DNA from: Neoarius graeffei
Lineage: Eukaryota; Chordata; Actinopteri; Siluriformes; Ariidae
Length of the DNA stretch: 64,000 nucleotides
Direction of reading: 5' to 3'
NCBI RefSeq assembly: GCF_027579695.1
Contig: NC_083590.1
Span: 17,528,446 to 17,592,445 of the forward strand
How positions within the stretch are numbered: the stretch's first letter is position 1; each line of letters begins with the position of its first letter. Positions 28,403-34,983 of the stretch are shown here, one piece after another. The position numbers and the translations under genes were made by a program. The notes below the pieces were generated by a model that did no database searches, was not told the origin of the DNA, and saw only the letters and a list, made by a program, of their open reading frames with translations.

Positions 28403-29521
28403 ACCAGTGTTAGAAATTACAGTCATACACACCGCCTAGTGGCCAGTGTTAGTAATTACAGTCATACACACCGCCTAGTGGCCAGTGTTAGTAATTACAG
28501 TCATATACGCCGCCTAGTGGCCAGTGTTAGTAATTACAGTCATATACGCCGCCTAGTGGCCAGTGTTAGTAATTACCAGTCATACACGCCGCCTAGTGGC
28601 TAGTGTTAGTAATTATCAGTCATACATACCGCCTAGTGGCCAGTGTTAGTAATTACCAGTCATACACGCCGCCTAGTGGCTAGTGTTAGTAATTATCAGT
28701 CATACATACCGCCTAGTGGCCAGTGTTAGTAATTACAGTCATACACGCCGCCTAGTGGCCAGTGTTAGTAATTACAGTCATACACGCCGCTTAGAGGCCA
28801 GTGTTAGTAATTGCAGTCATACACACCGCCTAGTGGCCAGTGTTAGTAATTACAGTCATACATGCCGCCTAGTGGCCAGTGTTAGTAATTGCAGTCATAC
28901 ACGCCGCCTAGTGGCCAGTGTTAGTAATTACAGTCATACACGCCGCTTAGTGGCCAGTGTTAGTAATTGCAGTCATACACGCCGCCTAGTGGCCAGTGTT
29001 AGTAATTACAGTCATACACGCCGCTTAGTGGCCAGTGTTAGTAATTACAGTCATACACGCCGCCTAGTGACCAGTGTTAGTAATTACAGTCATACACGCC
29101 GCCTAGTGACCAGTGTTAGTAATTACCAGTCATACACGCCGCCTACTGGCCAGTGTTAGTAATTGCAGTCATACACGCCGCCTAGTGACCAGTGTTAGTA
29201 ATTACCAGTCATACATGCCGCCTAGTGGCCAGTGTTAGTAATTGCAGTCATACACGCCGCCTAGTGGCCAGTGTTAGTAATTACAAATCATACACACCAC
29301 CTAGAGGCCAATGTAATTGCAGTCATACACACCACCTAGTGGCCAGTGTTAGTAATTACCAGCCATACACGCCACCTTGTGGCCAGTGTTAGTAATTAGT
29401 CATACACGCCGCCTTGTGGCCAGTTTTAGTAATTACAAGTCATACACGCCGCCTAGTGGCCAGTGTTAGTAATTACAAGTCATACCCGCCGCCTCGTGGC
29501 CAGTGTTAGTAATTACAAGTC
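28403..29521. repeat. 39-bp minisatellite, about 29 units
   Basis: Units read ACGCCGCCTAGTGGCCAGTG followed by TTAGTAATTACAGTCATAC, mostly 38-40 bases. Because 39 is a multiple of three, long spurious open frames cross it. Unit variants (TAGTGGCTAG, TTGTGG, TCGTGG) are clustered, which suggests local unit spread. Confidence 0.95.
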
Positions 29522-29618
29522 ATACCCCCTTGACAGCAGCAAGTCTTGCAATTCAACAAAATTCAGTTGTTTTGGAAATGTCTGAATTTTGTGATGTTTG
29601 GCTGATTTTTTGATGAAG

Positions 29619-29820
29619 ATGATGAGCTACCAATACCAAGGAAGAGAATGAAAGAGGACTATGTTGTGCCCATGCCCAATCCTCCTGCTTTTGATGGGGC
29701 AACCACTTCTTCCCACCGCTCATCTGCCAACAGGATCAGGCAGAACACATTGGGGTCACAGACGACCAGGCAGTCGCGCTCACCAACCACCCCCCCAAGG
29801 CAGAGCACATCAGGGACCAG
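29619..29820 (+). CDS. DUF4806-like gene, first recognised exon
   Basis: Encodes DDELPIPRKRMKEDYVVPMP and a serine/threonine/arginine-rich stretch ending in the first 16-residue repeat. An upstream in-frame TGA at 29603-29605 and a weak acceptor at 29617-29618 set its start. Confidence 0.55.
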
Positions 29821-31730
29821 GTAGGGCCAATGATTTTCTGTTTCAAAAATTGATGTTTTCCGTTTCAGAAAAGTGTAATTCCATTTCACTTAGTACATTT
29901 GCATATAAAAATTCCGTTTCGGGCACTTTCGGGTATTTTCACCCAAAATCTGAAGTAGATACATCTTAGTAATGGGACCTCGTAGTGTTGCCAAAACATA
30001 TAACACATTAAATACTGAGTATAAAAGTTACTTTAAGAAGTCAAAATTGCTGTAGAGACAGCAGAAGGCTTTGAAATATGAAATTGATTATTTGCCTCCA
30101 AAACCCCAAATTCCGTTAATTCCGTTTCATCACTGGTAATAACAGAATATCATTGGCCCTAACCAGGCAGTCGCGCTCAACAACCCCCCTGAGGCAGAGC
30201 ACATCAGGGACCAGGCAGTCTCACTCAATGACCCCCCCGAGGCAGAGCACATCAGGGACCAGGCAGCCGTGCTCAACAACCCCCCCAAGGCAGAGCACAT
30301 CAGGGACCAGGCAGTCACGCTCAACCCCTCTGAGGCAGAGCACATCAGGGACCAGGCAGTCCTGCTCAACAACCCCCCCCCCCGAGGCAGAGCACATCCG
30401 GGACCAGGCAGCCGCGCTCAACAACCCCCCTGAGGCAGAGCACATCAGGGACCAGGCAGCCGCACTCACCAACCCCCTGGAGGCAAAGCCTGTCGATGGA
30501 GACACCTAAGAGAAGCACTCCTGCCTCAAGAGAGCAGAGGCTTGAGAATGAAAGTGAGTCATATTTTGCATATATTCCGAATCATTAAGGTTGATGTTAT
30601 TGATCATGACCATAGTGCTATTTGCTTGGGAACAACACGTCTATTTCACATGGTGGCCTGTCATTTTTTATCTTTGCAGTCGTCCAGCTGAAAATTAAGG
30701 TTCAAACTCTACTTGAAAACCAAGGAGAAATCCTGCACCTTCTCAGGAGGATGTCGGCCAACTCTCTTGATGGCGGTGAGCCTGTAGATATTGAGGACCT
30801 CATCCCCCACCCACTGCGTACCAAACACGAGCTCCAGGAGCTCTGTGACAAGTTGGAACAGGACGACACATACAGGGGCAAAATGGTAACTAAATGGTAA
30901 ATCTATCCACTATAAATGACGAGTCCTCTAGATGGATCTAATCTGCTGGTATTATTTATTATATTTTTAGCTGTGTACTGTGTACTCACTTCACTCTAAA
31001 ATGACTTCCATGAAATGAATGGCAAACTAATGGGTCAATAAGTAGAGATGAAAAATTCTTTGAAATAATTGACTACTGTTTATTTTCTTGTTTTATTTCA
31101 CATAGATAAAGGCCCTGGCTGCCTTGGGAGGACGTGACATACCAGAAGGGATAAGATTGATGTGCCGCCACATTGTAGAAAACAGGCTGTGGGAGCAGTA
31201 CAGCATGAAGGGGAGGAAAGGCAAAGTGCCTTTTCAGAACCTGCAGTTATGCAGGGTATTAGTCAGTAAGTATTTTTTGATATTGTCAGGACACACATAG
31301 GCTGAATCAACTTTTAGATACTGAAAATAAGAAGATGCCTACTGTCCTTAATCATTTAATTTTGTTTACATTATTTCAGAGGCTGCAACCTTTGCATACA
31401 AAAAGAAGAATCTGAAAAAAGATTATGTGCTTCAAGAAGTCGCCGATGTCATGAAGTACGCAGCCCACAGGCCTGGAGGGTCTAAGTACAAGTCACCAAA
31501 GGTGAATAACAAACCCCCAAAATTAATTATATAAAAGGGAAAGAAAAGGACACATACATACAAACATGCATACCTTGTGGTGTAACATTTTAAAATCAGT
31601 TGTCAACTCGTATGTTATTTGGTTATAAATTGGTGTGTTATTCAATAATTTTTTCATTGGTTTATTACAGAATAAAACCCAGAATGGAGGACCTCAACTA
31701 GATGACAGCAACACCGAGAATGATGCCTAG
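29619..31730 (+). CDS. DUF4806-domain-like gene, 3' exons, with a frameshifting C tract
   Basis: Six exons fit by splice signals and phase: 29619-29820, 30167-30553, 30680-30885, 31106-31265, 31380-31501, 31671-31730 (TAG). Order of parts: acidic start DDELPIPRKRM; eight 16-residue repeats of the RQSRSTTPPRQSTSGT type; a predicted coiled coil (LENEIVQLKIKVQTLLENQ); then GGRDIPEGIRLMCRHIVENR and KGRKGKVPFQNLQLCRVL, which I recognise as DUF4806; a basic segment and an acidic end. An 11-base C run at 30373-30383 puts the repeats out of frame (stop at 30507-30509); with the 7 bases seen in sister units the frame runs on. The true first exon was not found. It could be a pseudogene or carry an assembly error in the run. 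Confidence 0.7.
29822..30161. mobile_element. 340-bp TIR element inside the coding repeats, bounded by splice sites
   Basis: Ends TAGGGCCAATGAT and ATCATTGGCCCTA are inverted repeats. A 6-bp duplication ACCAGG lies at 29816-29821 and 30162-30167. CAG/GTAGGG at the left border and CTAACCAG/G at the right border would remove the element exactly and restore the repeat frame. Confidence 0.75.
30167..30553 (+). CDS. DUF4806-like gene, 48-bp repeat exon
   Basis: Seven tandem 48-bp units (one is 45) encoding RQSRSTTPLRQSTSGT variants, then TPKRSTPASREQRLENE before GTGAGT. The C11 run at 30373-30383 breaks the frame between unit five's two halves. Confidence 0.65.
30680..30885 (+). CDS. DUF4806-like gene, coiled-coil exon
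   Basis: Acceptor TCTTTGCAG, donor GTAACT. Encodes VQLKIKVQTLLENQGEILHL and a linker DLIPHPLRTKHELQELCDKL leading into the DUF4806 core. Confidence 0.75.
31106..31265 (+). CDS. DUF4806-like gene, domain core exon
   Basis: Acceptor TTTCACATAG, donor GTAAGT. Holds LAALGGRDIPEGIRLMCRHI and YSMKGRKGKVPFQNLQLCRV, the most conserved part of the domain. Confidence 0.8.
31380..31501 (+). CDS. DUF4806-like gene, basic exon
   Basis: Acceptor TTATTTCAG. Encodes KAATFAYKKKNLKKDYVLQE and HRPGGSKYKSPK. Lysine-rich, fitting a nuclear protein. Confidence 0.7.
31671..31730 (+). CDS. DUF4806-like gene, last exon
   Basis: Acceptor TTTATTACAG. Encodes NKTQNGGPQLDDSNTENDA and TAG. Confidence 0.7.
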   Translation, partial: NKTQNGGPQLDDSNTENDA

Positions 31731-31864
31731 ACAGCAGTTGACTAGACAGCAATTGACTAATGAACATGCAGGGACTAATTTGTTTAAAATGAACATAATG
31801 GCTTAATTTCTGGTAGATCAGATTAATGTGACACTGTCTTTGCTTACTGTTGTAGTGAATATAT

Positions 31865-31870
31865 AATAAA
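31865..31870 (+). promoter_or_regulatory. Poly(A) signal of the DUF4806-like gene
   Basis: AATAAA about 135 bases after the stop codon. Confidence 0.55.
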
Positions 31871-31950
31871 GAACAATTAGTCCAAACCCTAATTATAATT
31901 ATGATTATTTATTTCCATTAAACAGAAATCAAAAGCTGGTTCCTAAATAA

Positions 31951-32020
31951 TGTTCACGCCACCTCGTGGCCAGTGTTAGTAATTGCAGTCATACACGCCG
32001 CCTCGTGGCCAGTGTTAGCA
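31951..32020. repeat. Two more units of the 39-bp minisatellite
   Basis: GCCACCTCGTGGCCAGTG and GCCGCCTCGTGGCCAGTG units lie beyond the gene's 3' end, in the same orientation as the main array. Confidence 0.9.
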
Positions 32021-32114: not shown

Positions 32115-32340
32115 TCTATATATTATAGAGCTCAATGTCTGTGAAGATTCTCAGGTCATAGTAAACCATAGGTGCTAAAAGAAGGCTTGAAATTCTTGGA
32201 GACATTTCACCTCTCATCCAAAAGGCTACTTCAGTTCTGTCTGACTAGTGGGGACTTCCAGGTATTTATCCTCTAGTGGGAGGAGTAAAAGAAGCCATCT
32301 TTTTCAACCTGGAACGATCATCACTGAACAGTGGAGGTGG
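32115..32340 (-). repeat. Penelope-like retroelement end, fossil copy 1
   Basis: The GGTGCTAAAAGAAGGCTTG and TTCACCTCTCATCCAAAAGG block is a widespread fish repeat that I associate with Penelope-like element termini. A related block in opposite orientation lies at 33860-33990. Broken remnant; no coding region seen. Confidence 0.45.
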
Positions 32341-32345
32341 TCTAA

Positions 32346-33086
32346 TGGCCCTTTTCCACTACCCTTTTTCAGCTCACTTCAGCCCGACACGGCTCGCGTT
32401 TCGACTATCTAATGCCGCTTTTCCACTACCAACGCGGCTGAGCCGTGCCGTGCTGAGTTGGACTGAGTCGAGCTGAGCGGGGCTGTTGGAGTTGCATTTC
32501 GACTACAACCGCGCTGAACCGTGCTGACTGGAAGTGGGTGGACACATTGGGTGGAGTTAGCGAAAGTGGGTGGACGTTACGTGATGTCGTTAGGCGGCGC
32601 AAACAGTGACATCAGTGATCTTTTAAGCGGTAGTCTCACAACCCGGATAGTAAACAATAAACATGGAGTCGTTAGTGTTGCTGGTCTTGGTGCTGTGGCT
32701 TGTTGTCACCGACAACGCCAACAGATACTAGCAAGAGCGTATAGATGAGGCGAGGCGCATAAGGCTTCAGAAATTCTCGTAATTCTTCTTCCGGGTTTAC
32801 GGTGTTTACAGATCCCAGCGTGCTCGTGGGGCGTGTGTGGGCGTGTGAGGACACTCCTCCTCACCAATCAGTGCACAGGGGAGTGTCTCCTCACGCCCCC
32901 AGCCTCACTCGGCTCGGTTTGGCTCGCTTCAGCCCTACTCCAAAACCGTGCGAGTTTTGGGTGCTAAGCAGGGCTGAAGCGAGCCGAGTCGTGCTGTTCT
33001 TAGATAGTCGAAACGCGAGCCGTGTCGGGCTGAAGTGAGCTGAAGCGAGCTGAAGTGAGCTGAAAAAGGGTAGTGGAAAAGGGCCA
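32346..33086. mobile_element. PIF/Harbinger-like element with TAA duplication, part of a palindrome
   Basis: Ends TGGCCCTTTTCCACTACC and GGTAGTGGAAAAGGGCCA with TAA at 32343-32345 and 33087-33089. Inside, a second terminus TGCCGCTTTTCCACTACC lies at about 32413. GC-rich, no transposase. Confidence 0.75.
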
Positions 33087-33089
33087 TAA

Positions 33090-33667
33090 GAACAGCACGA
33101 CTCGGCTCGCTTCAGCCCTGCTTAGCACCCAAAACTCGCACGGTTTTGGAGTAGGGCTGAAGCGAGCCAAACTGAGCCGAGTGAGGCTGGGGGCGTGAGG
33201 AGACACTCCCCTGTGCACTGATTGGTGAGGAGGAGTGTCCTCACACGCCCACACACGCCCCGTGAGCACGCTGGGATCTGTAAACACCGTAAACCCGGAA
33301 GAAGAATTACGAGAATTTCTGAAGCCTTATGCACCTCGCCTCATTTATACGCTCTTGCCAGTATCTGTTGGCGACAACAAGCCACAGCACCAAGACCAGC
33401 AACACTAACGACTCCATGTTTATTGTTTACTATCCGGGTCGTGAGACTACCGCTTAAAAGATCACTGATGTCACTGTTTGCGCCGCCTAACGACATCACG
33501 TGACGTCCACCCACTTTTGCTAACTCCACCCAATGTGTCCACCCACTTCCAGCCAGCACGGTTTAGCGCGGTTGTAGTCGAAATGCAACTCCAACAGCCC
33601 CGCTCAGCTCGACTCAGCCCGACTCATCACGGCACGGCTCAGCCGCGTTGGTAGTGGAAAAGCGGCA
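33090..33667. mobile_element. Inverted sister copy of the Harbinger-like element
   Basis: Nearly perfect reverse complement of 32413-33000, ending GGTAGTGGAAAAGCGGCA with TAA at 33668-33670. Its left TIR is lacking, so it is a partial copy abutting the previous one. Confidence 0.75.
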
Positions 33668-33675
33668 TAAGACAC

Positions 33676-33990
33676 CACTTATCAGCCACCTACAATGCAG
33701 TCCTTGGCACACTCACACCAAAACTCAGCTGACTTCAATGACTCACACGATGGCAGAGAGAACCAACGACCCACATATCACTCTCATGGCTCTCTAGGCT
33801 GCTAACACCGTTCACACCCGGCCTGCAGTGACCTACACCTACAGGATGACTCAACAACCCAAACTCTGTAGGGTTGCTTTTTGGTCCACTCGTCAGACAG
33901 AACTGAAGAAGCCTTTCGAATGAAAGATGAAACATCTTCAAGAATTTCAAACACATCCAGGTGCCTTCTTTTAGCACCTACGGTGTAGGA
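33676..33990 (+). repeat. Penelope-like retroelement end, fossil copy 2
   Basis: GACAGAACTGAAGAAGCC and GGTGCCTTCTTTTAGCACC are the mirrored counterparts of copy 1. Fossil remnant with no coding region seen. Confidence 0.45.
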
Positions 33991-34594: not shown

Positions 34595-34653
34595 ATCTCT
34601 GTTTATTCCACCAAAGTGTCAACTCGTCATTTTGAGCCCTGCCCAGACGCACC

Positions 34654-34853
34654 NNNNNNNNNNNNNNNNNNNNNNNNNNNNNNNNNNNNNNNNNNNNNNN
34701 NNNNNNNNNNNNNNNNNNNNNNNNNNNNNNNNNNNNNNNNNNNNNNNNNNNNNNNNNNNNNNNNNNNNNNNNNNNNNNNNNNNNNNNNNNNNNNNNNNNN
34801 NNNNNNNNNNNNNNNNNNNNNNNNNNNNNNNNNNNNNNNNNNNNNNNNNNNNN
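34654..34853. other. Assembly gap of 200 N
   Basis: Unknown bases; open frames across it are meaningless. Confidence 1.
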
Positions 34854-34983
34854 CTTTATGATGCCGCCACTGAGCTGCCAGAATTGATTTGACTTGACAC
34901 AGAGGCTCCAAACAAGCTCAGTGAAAAAGAGGGAGATCTCCCTCCACTCACCCCAGAAAACAGAGAGAATTTTAAGTACTTAC

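Follow-up and report, generated by a model that had tools for sequence, protein, structure and literature searches.

Among the systems described so far, the nearest precedent is found in maize, in which Ds elements reportedly act as introns. Ds elements end in TAGGG and create 8-bp duplications, the sequence at the junction supplies the splice sites, and splicing was shown on RNA. The element described below has in common with Ds that it is of hAT type, lies in an exon and is intron-like, here by prediction, with splice sites at its junctions recognizable at the sequence level. It differs from Ds in that its target-site duplication (TSD) is 6 bp and not 8 bp long, in that its host is itself a transposon, and in that its splicing is predicted from the sequence. 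On the subject of Ds introns, PMC3260210 cites Giroux et al. 1994, Dennis et al. 1988 and Wessler 1991.

Introners, as presented by Gozashti et al. 2022 (PMC9860276), include cases in which a duplicated site supplies the splice sites. According to that paper, the only animal or land-plant groups in which introners were found are two groups of animals, and no pattern of introner gain is reported for vertebrates. Like the introners presented there, the element investigated here is DNA-transposon-like, with a TIR and a TSD, and its duplicated site gives splice letters on both sides; unlike introners, which are families whose similar members lie as introns in many genes, it is found at one position and was co-amplified. 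Transposon-derived introns have also been described in the notothenioid gene slc26a2 (PMC12357937). The present case would likewise be a fish gene that gained an intron from a transposon, here as a candidate; the host in slc26a2 is a cellular gene of known exon structure, whereas here it is a transposon gene in which splicing is predicted. In a small survey of open-licence papers, by title or by the beginning of the abstract, none was found on a transposon gene with an intron derived from a nested MITE.

The inserted element and its target site

The window analysed is a stretch of 64,000 nt of the Neoarius graeffei genome (assembly GCF_027579695.1, contig NC_083590.1, positions 17,528,446 to 17,592,445). 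It contains, at 29822-30161 on the forward strand, a 340-bp element with perfect 13-bp TIRs, the left one (TAGGGCCAATGAT) at 29822-29834 on the forward strand and its exact inverted counterpart at 30149-30161 on the reverse strand. The extended TIR arms are 34 nt long and 79% complementary. The element is flanked by two copies of the TSD ACCAGG, neither assigned to a strand, at 29816-29821 and at 30162-30167. Short, non-coding and bounded by TIRs and a TSD, it has the properties of a MITE, and its sequence and its genome copies point to a non-autonomous element of hAT type. It interrupts, after the first clear unit, a coding tandem array of 48-bp (16-codon) units resembling RQSRSTTPLRQSTSGT, which extends over 29764-30489 on the forward strand. 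Other 48-bp units read ..GGGACCAGGCAGTC.. or near variants of it and carry no insert; these uninterrupted units show the empty site within the same array, indicating that the 6-bp duplication is real.

The original prediction of a 340-bp TIR element with a 6-bp ACCAGG duplication inside a coding tandem repeat is thus in agreement with the sequence at 29822-30161. As to the coding context, the 16-codon repeat was confirmed, but the exon that contains it (exon a) is not open throughout in the window, where a run of 11 C shifts the frame and the acceptor reads TG.

The TIR family of the insert

The genome contains 1,579 occurrences of the TIR 17-mer TAGGGCCAATGATTTTC and none of its reversed control, indicating that the TIR is a real transposon end. 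Matches of the 17-mer in two viral contigs had the same local sequence and no TIR partner, and were read as chance. Nine of the 20 loci that share the first ~70 bp of the element were examined, with identities of 80-84%. Both ends could be located in eight of the nine (L020-L027), which are 1.1-3.7 kb long and carry 6-bp TSDs (AAGGGG, TGCATT twice, AATGAG, CACATG, and TGAGAG three times); the ninth, L028, gave no end. The repeated TSDs, belonging to five of the eight elements, come with alike flanks, so that about five sites are represented. These alike flanks suggest insertion into other repeats or duplicated loci.

L023 has the same end sequence, and one of its ORFs matches Dimer_Tnp_hAT with 26.0 bits (cutoff 21.4). 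Judged by its terminal sequence and its relatives, the TIR of the insert is that of an abundant hAT family with 6-bp duplications. This length is not the 8 bp of hAT elements, but is within the 5-7 bp of hAT variants. In PMC12730594, hAT families with 6-bp TSDs are named 'hAT6', and 5-, 6- and 7-bp hAT variants are named. The 6-bp TSD and the hAT dimerization ORF in a relative are likenesses to hAT6, in which the family is placed by TSD length only. IS3EU was considered as the source of a 6-bp TSD and rejected, as its termini, given as TAYGG..CCRTA in PMC12730594, are unlike TAGGG, and the relative encodes a hAT domain.

Two further observations concern members of the TIR family. In L059 and L060, a palindrome, TTTTCCGCGATCGCGGAAAA, is located just inside the TIR-family end, and in L027, the 3.7-kb member, ORFs of 569 and 274 aa resemble a nested non-LTR retrotransposon (by eye).

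Copies of the insert in the genome

The genome searched comprises 2.34 Gb in 38 contigs. With the 340-bp element as query, 40 matches were obtained, i.e. 18 full copies with 90-100% identity to the window element, the two halves of one split copy (L019), and 20 weaker matches covering the first ~70 bp only. The flanks of the 18 full copies are alike (17 were aligned side by side and L018 was read separately), and the split copy aligns over both insert junctions. An exact ACCAGG pair is present in 14 of 17 copies, and L002, L004 and L008 deviate from it by one or two bases. When the interior of the element was used as query, the same 19 places were obtained and no others (20 matches from 20 candidates, the counts being lower bounds); in this search no interior was found outside the host transposon. 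All copies found occupy one homologous site, indicating that the 340-bp 'family' is one insertion seen 19 times, and not a set of independent introns. The insert with 40-nt flanks deviates by 1.2-4.9% from the consensus in 17 of the 18 full copies (L018 was left out owing to its split alignment).

These data bear on the possibility that the TIR elements are an introner family, adapted to create introns on insertion. This possibility draws on the local border geometry only, and similar introns at many non-homologous positions, by which introners are recognized, were not found, all copies found being located at one site. An AGG preceding the TIR, which is needed for the donor, was observed at 16 of the 1,579 exact ends, compared with 20.1 expected at the AGG frequency of the window, and 13 of these 16 are the host-transposon insertion; in the opposite orientation one exact end with AGG was obtained. 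This survey covers exact 17-mers, with changed TIRs (the left ends of L020-L027, for example, read TAGAG) lying outside it, and the ends counted are not independent insertions. At its exact ends, the TIR family thus has fewer AGG targets than expected, not more, and an enrichment in exons or in splice-compatible targets was not seen at these ends.

At the three AGG sites independent of the host-transposon insertion, all frames are stopped within 60 codons of the junction, and no long open frame adjoins; L059, one of the three, has one frame that stays open over the last ~48 codons, and one flank is common to two of them. The TSDs of all eight relatives with both ends located likewise do not end in AGG. 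Borders usable for exact splicing were found at the host-transposon site only. Taken together, the copy survey and the AGG survey largely rule out an introner family, which we regard as highly improbable. Of the introner arrangement claimed in the original prediction, the splice-compatible geometry of the kind described for introners therefore stands, and the family does not, given one homologous site and the scarcity of AGG. The refuting observation named there, other copies never lying at exon borders, likewise turned out largely against a family, owing to the single site of the copies and to the stops at the three other sites.

The host transposon and its gene

The insert is surrounded by a dispersed unit, which is ~5.5 kb long in copy L010. 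Its ORFs resemble Transposase_21 (E 1.6e-5, 24.6 bits, under the Pfam cutoff of 28.6) and DUF4218 (E 4e-5, 23.9 bits, under the Pfam cutoff of 27), and a multi-exon DUF4806-type gene is located downstream of both. When exons b to e of the window copy were joined, they matched DUF4806 with 34.5 bits (cutoff 25), the single exons being below the cutoff. DUF4806-like exons are frequent in the genome, with 177 matches, and those listed outside the host family show 26-47% identity. The left end, the TIRs and the TSD of the host were looked for in the copies and not found; the right end in the copies reads approximately ..CAATTGTTAG, and no CACTA was seen there. Owing to these missing ends and to both transposase matches being under the cutoff, the host is designated CACTA/EnSpm-like provisionally. 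The flanks of the right end were read in eight copies and are of six different kinds (L011 and L012 are alike, as are L014 and L017), indicating that most of the eight copies moved independently.

The coding array is very variable between copies: the distance separating the insert from the exon end is 291 nt for L010 and 1,229 nt for L015. Changes in poly-C length between copies shift the frame of exon a.

The 5' segment of exon a was found at 20 loci (24 rows collapsed), a count that applies to host copies with this segment and leaves aside fragments such as L043, L045, L051 and others. The insert is present in 19 of the 20 loci. In the locus without insert, L050, the array has collapsed, and the copy groups among the others in a tree that is star-like and weakly resolved owing to few sites. 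L050 has 90% identity, the lowest of the rows spanning the whole exon-a segment, and its divergence of 2.6% is the largest in the range of 0.9-2.6% from the consensus found for the host segments. L050 was considered as an ancestral empty copy; the collapsed array and the position in the tree make it unlikely to be an older copy without insert, an argument that is weakened by its lowest identity and largest divergence. As 19 of 20 loci have the insert, and the twentieth is contracted and similarly diverged, it appears that the insert was already present when the host spread. Judged by these copies, the active ancestor transposon very probably carried the insert.

Origin and spread of the insertion

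In our preferred reading, to which we assign a probability of about 0.87, a single hAT insertion in a gene of a CACTA/EnSpm-like host was co-amplified with that host, decay of the copies following later. The insertion would have been a one-time event, in which a short non-autonomous hAT element of the kind that makes 6-bp duplications entered the repeat-coding exon of the DUF4806-type gene. The duplicated site would by chance have been ACCAGG, so that TSD and TIR together spell CAG/GTAGGG on the left and CTAACCAG/G on the right. Host and insert together would then have spread to ~20 places, with the insert hitchhiking; the copies would have decayed after this spread, leaving in the window one truncated dead copy.

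Candidate splice signals and coding capacity

The hypothetical intron, CAG/GTAGGG ... TAATAAC ... CTAACCAG/G, is 346 nt long and is predicted at 29821-30166 on the forward strand. As a putative GT-AG intron it takes out the element together with one TSD, and the frame is kept over the junction; the claim that splicing at the element borders would remove the element exactly and rejoin the codons was thus correct. A host that spread with its insert in place could be explained by splicing as in maize Ds. The first of two accounts is that the spliceosome removed, or still removes, the insert from CAG/GTAGGG to CTAACCAG/G, that a gene interrupted by the insert yielded the DUF4806 protein, and that the intron spread with the transposon; we hold this account tentatively, at somewhat under even odds. 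In the second account, to which we give slightly better than an even chance, the insert was never spliced and the second protein is truncated. Mobilization would then have relied on the transposase and nothing else, on proteins provided in trans, or on a DUF4806 protein started downstream, e.g. at the methionine of METPKRSTPASREQ.

Apart from the exact-removal borders, the quality of the sites in part favours a de novo intron. With approximate position weights, the candidate donor scores 5.9, above the four donors of the same gene (1.1-4.4), and the candidate acceptor scores 2.41, near and just under the weakest of the four acceptors of that gene (2.44-4.87). A branch-point-like TAATAAC was seen by eye ~24 nt before the candidate acceptor. 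Against splicing, the pyrimidine tract of the acceptor is weak, and in the predicted RNA the paired TIRs would bury the donor in a stem (z -3.7). For this element, exon a has 542 insertion points, of which 27 (~5%) yield GT-AG borders allowing exact removal and 8 yield borders at least as good as those observed, again with approximate position weights. The match to splice borders is therefore uncommon, not remarkable, and a passive hitchhiker could have acquired it by chance.

The donor GT is retained in 17 of the 18 full copies, L004 being the copy without it, and the acceptor AG in all 18. This retention is as expected for an intron, but intact sites prove little in copies as young as these, as random stretches of the element were equally conserved 14% of the time, and 50% of the time outside CpG. 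Conservation of the splice motifs was accordingly discounted as evidence, there being no signal above chance with CpG set aside.

Read-through and phase were surveyed in 16 of the 18 full copies (L006, GGGAGT, and L013, GTAAGT, were dropped for a deviant donor after the array, and the split copy L019 lies outside this survey). When the insert is read unspliced, the first stop is the TAG of the TIR itself in 10 of the 16 copies, the window copy included, a result that speaks for removal of the insert in the ancestor; the remaining six copies are out of frame or stopped before this TAG. Against it, 11 of the 16 copies are out of phase once spliced in silico, and only L017 gives a stop-free, in-phase exon a after predicted splicing, this copy itself having a stop in the first DUF4806 exon. 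The transposase is open in two of the four insert-bearing copies read over most of its length (L010, from which the query was taken, and L015), and none of these four copies is intact over its whole length.

The exons downstream of the insert are open in the alignment consensus, which is in line with a spliced ancestor, but no constraint on them could be detected. Shared changes numbered 29 N to 15 S and singletons 55 to 24, compared with a neutral expectation of 2.34 from the intron spectrum (p 0.52). These figures derive from 24 rows, in which L048 and L049 are one copy, as probably are, judged by position, L046 and L053 and also L047 and L052; some rows are thus two loci of one copy, and the number of shared changes is inflated. 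The absence of purifying selection downstream and the star-like tree are both consistent with passive hitchhiking. On the other side, an autonomous copy free of the insert, which would fit a passive insert well, was not found; L050, free of the insert, has its array collapsed and is placed, with weak support, among the other copies.

Within the preferred reading of one co-amplified insertion, real splicing of the insert in the active ancestor thus appears possible from the signals at its borders, with chances somewhat below one half. The insert would then have been a new intron, cut out of the pre-mRNA as Ds is in maize, and this may be why the transposon stayed productive. Otherwise, plain hitchhiking would suffice, and the downstream protein would then be initiated further along, be unnecessary, or be provided in trans.

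Should the insert be spliced, the locus would offer a datable example of an intron that one transposon created in another and that spread together with its host, and the ~20 similar copies would serve as natural replicates for junction mutations that abolish splicing, such as the missing donor GT of L004. A transposon-in-transposon insertion tolerated through splicing would make the transposon a vehicle for a new intron. The broader proposal, that an active animal DNA transposon gained a spliceosomal intron from a nested transposon and that the new intron was subsequently multiplied across the genome together with its host, is put forward with some doubt, as about a one-in-three prospect. If the insert is not spliced, the locus calls for caution in two respects, as exact-removal GT-AG borders arise at about one in twenty exon points, and many 'introner' copies can be a single insertion in a multicopy host.

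The copy in the window

The host fragment in the window extends over 29525-31955 on the forward strand and is a truncated CACTA/EnSpm-like copy without transposase, DUF4218 part or first DUF4806 exon, all of which are located upstream in other copies. The exons of its DUF4806-type gene are all on the forward strand. Exon a covers 29613-30553, its start being deduced from the AG of other copies, and is followed by exon b (30680-30885), exon c (31106-31265), in which DUF4806 continues, exon d (31380-31501), and exon e (31671-31730), which includes the stop codon. The acceptor of exon a reads TG at 29611-29612, compared with AG in all 15 non-window copies in the comparison; L007, L011 and L012 were not matched by the search pattern. 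The run of 11 C that shifts the frame of exon a is located at 30373-30383, within a 52-bp unit. The window copy is a dead, truncated fragment, and transcripts from this copy itself are probably uninformative on splicing.

The fragment breaks a satellite of 39-bp units between GTCATAC and ACGCC, and no target duplication was seen there by eye. To the left of the fragment, the satellite comprises ~29 copies at 28404-29524, not assigned to a strand, and it resumes at 31956 (by eye); the satellite stretches beside the fragment are 28404-29525 and 31956-32020. Further to the right, a large inverted repeat was observed at 32187-33950, with one pair of arms at 32408-32714 and 33366-33672 (307 nt, 96%) and a second pair at 32716-33002 and 33087-33373 (287 nt, 98%). 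A run of N at ~34636-34855, visible as X in translated ORFs, is probably an assembly gap or a masked stretch.
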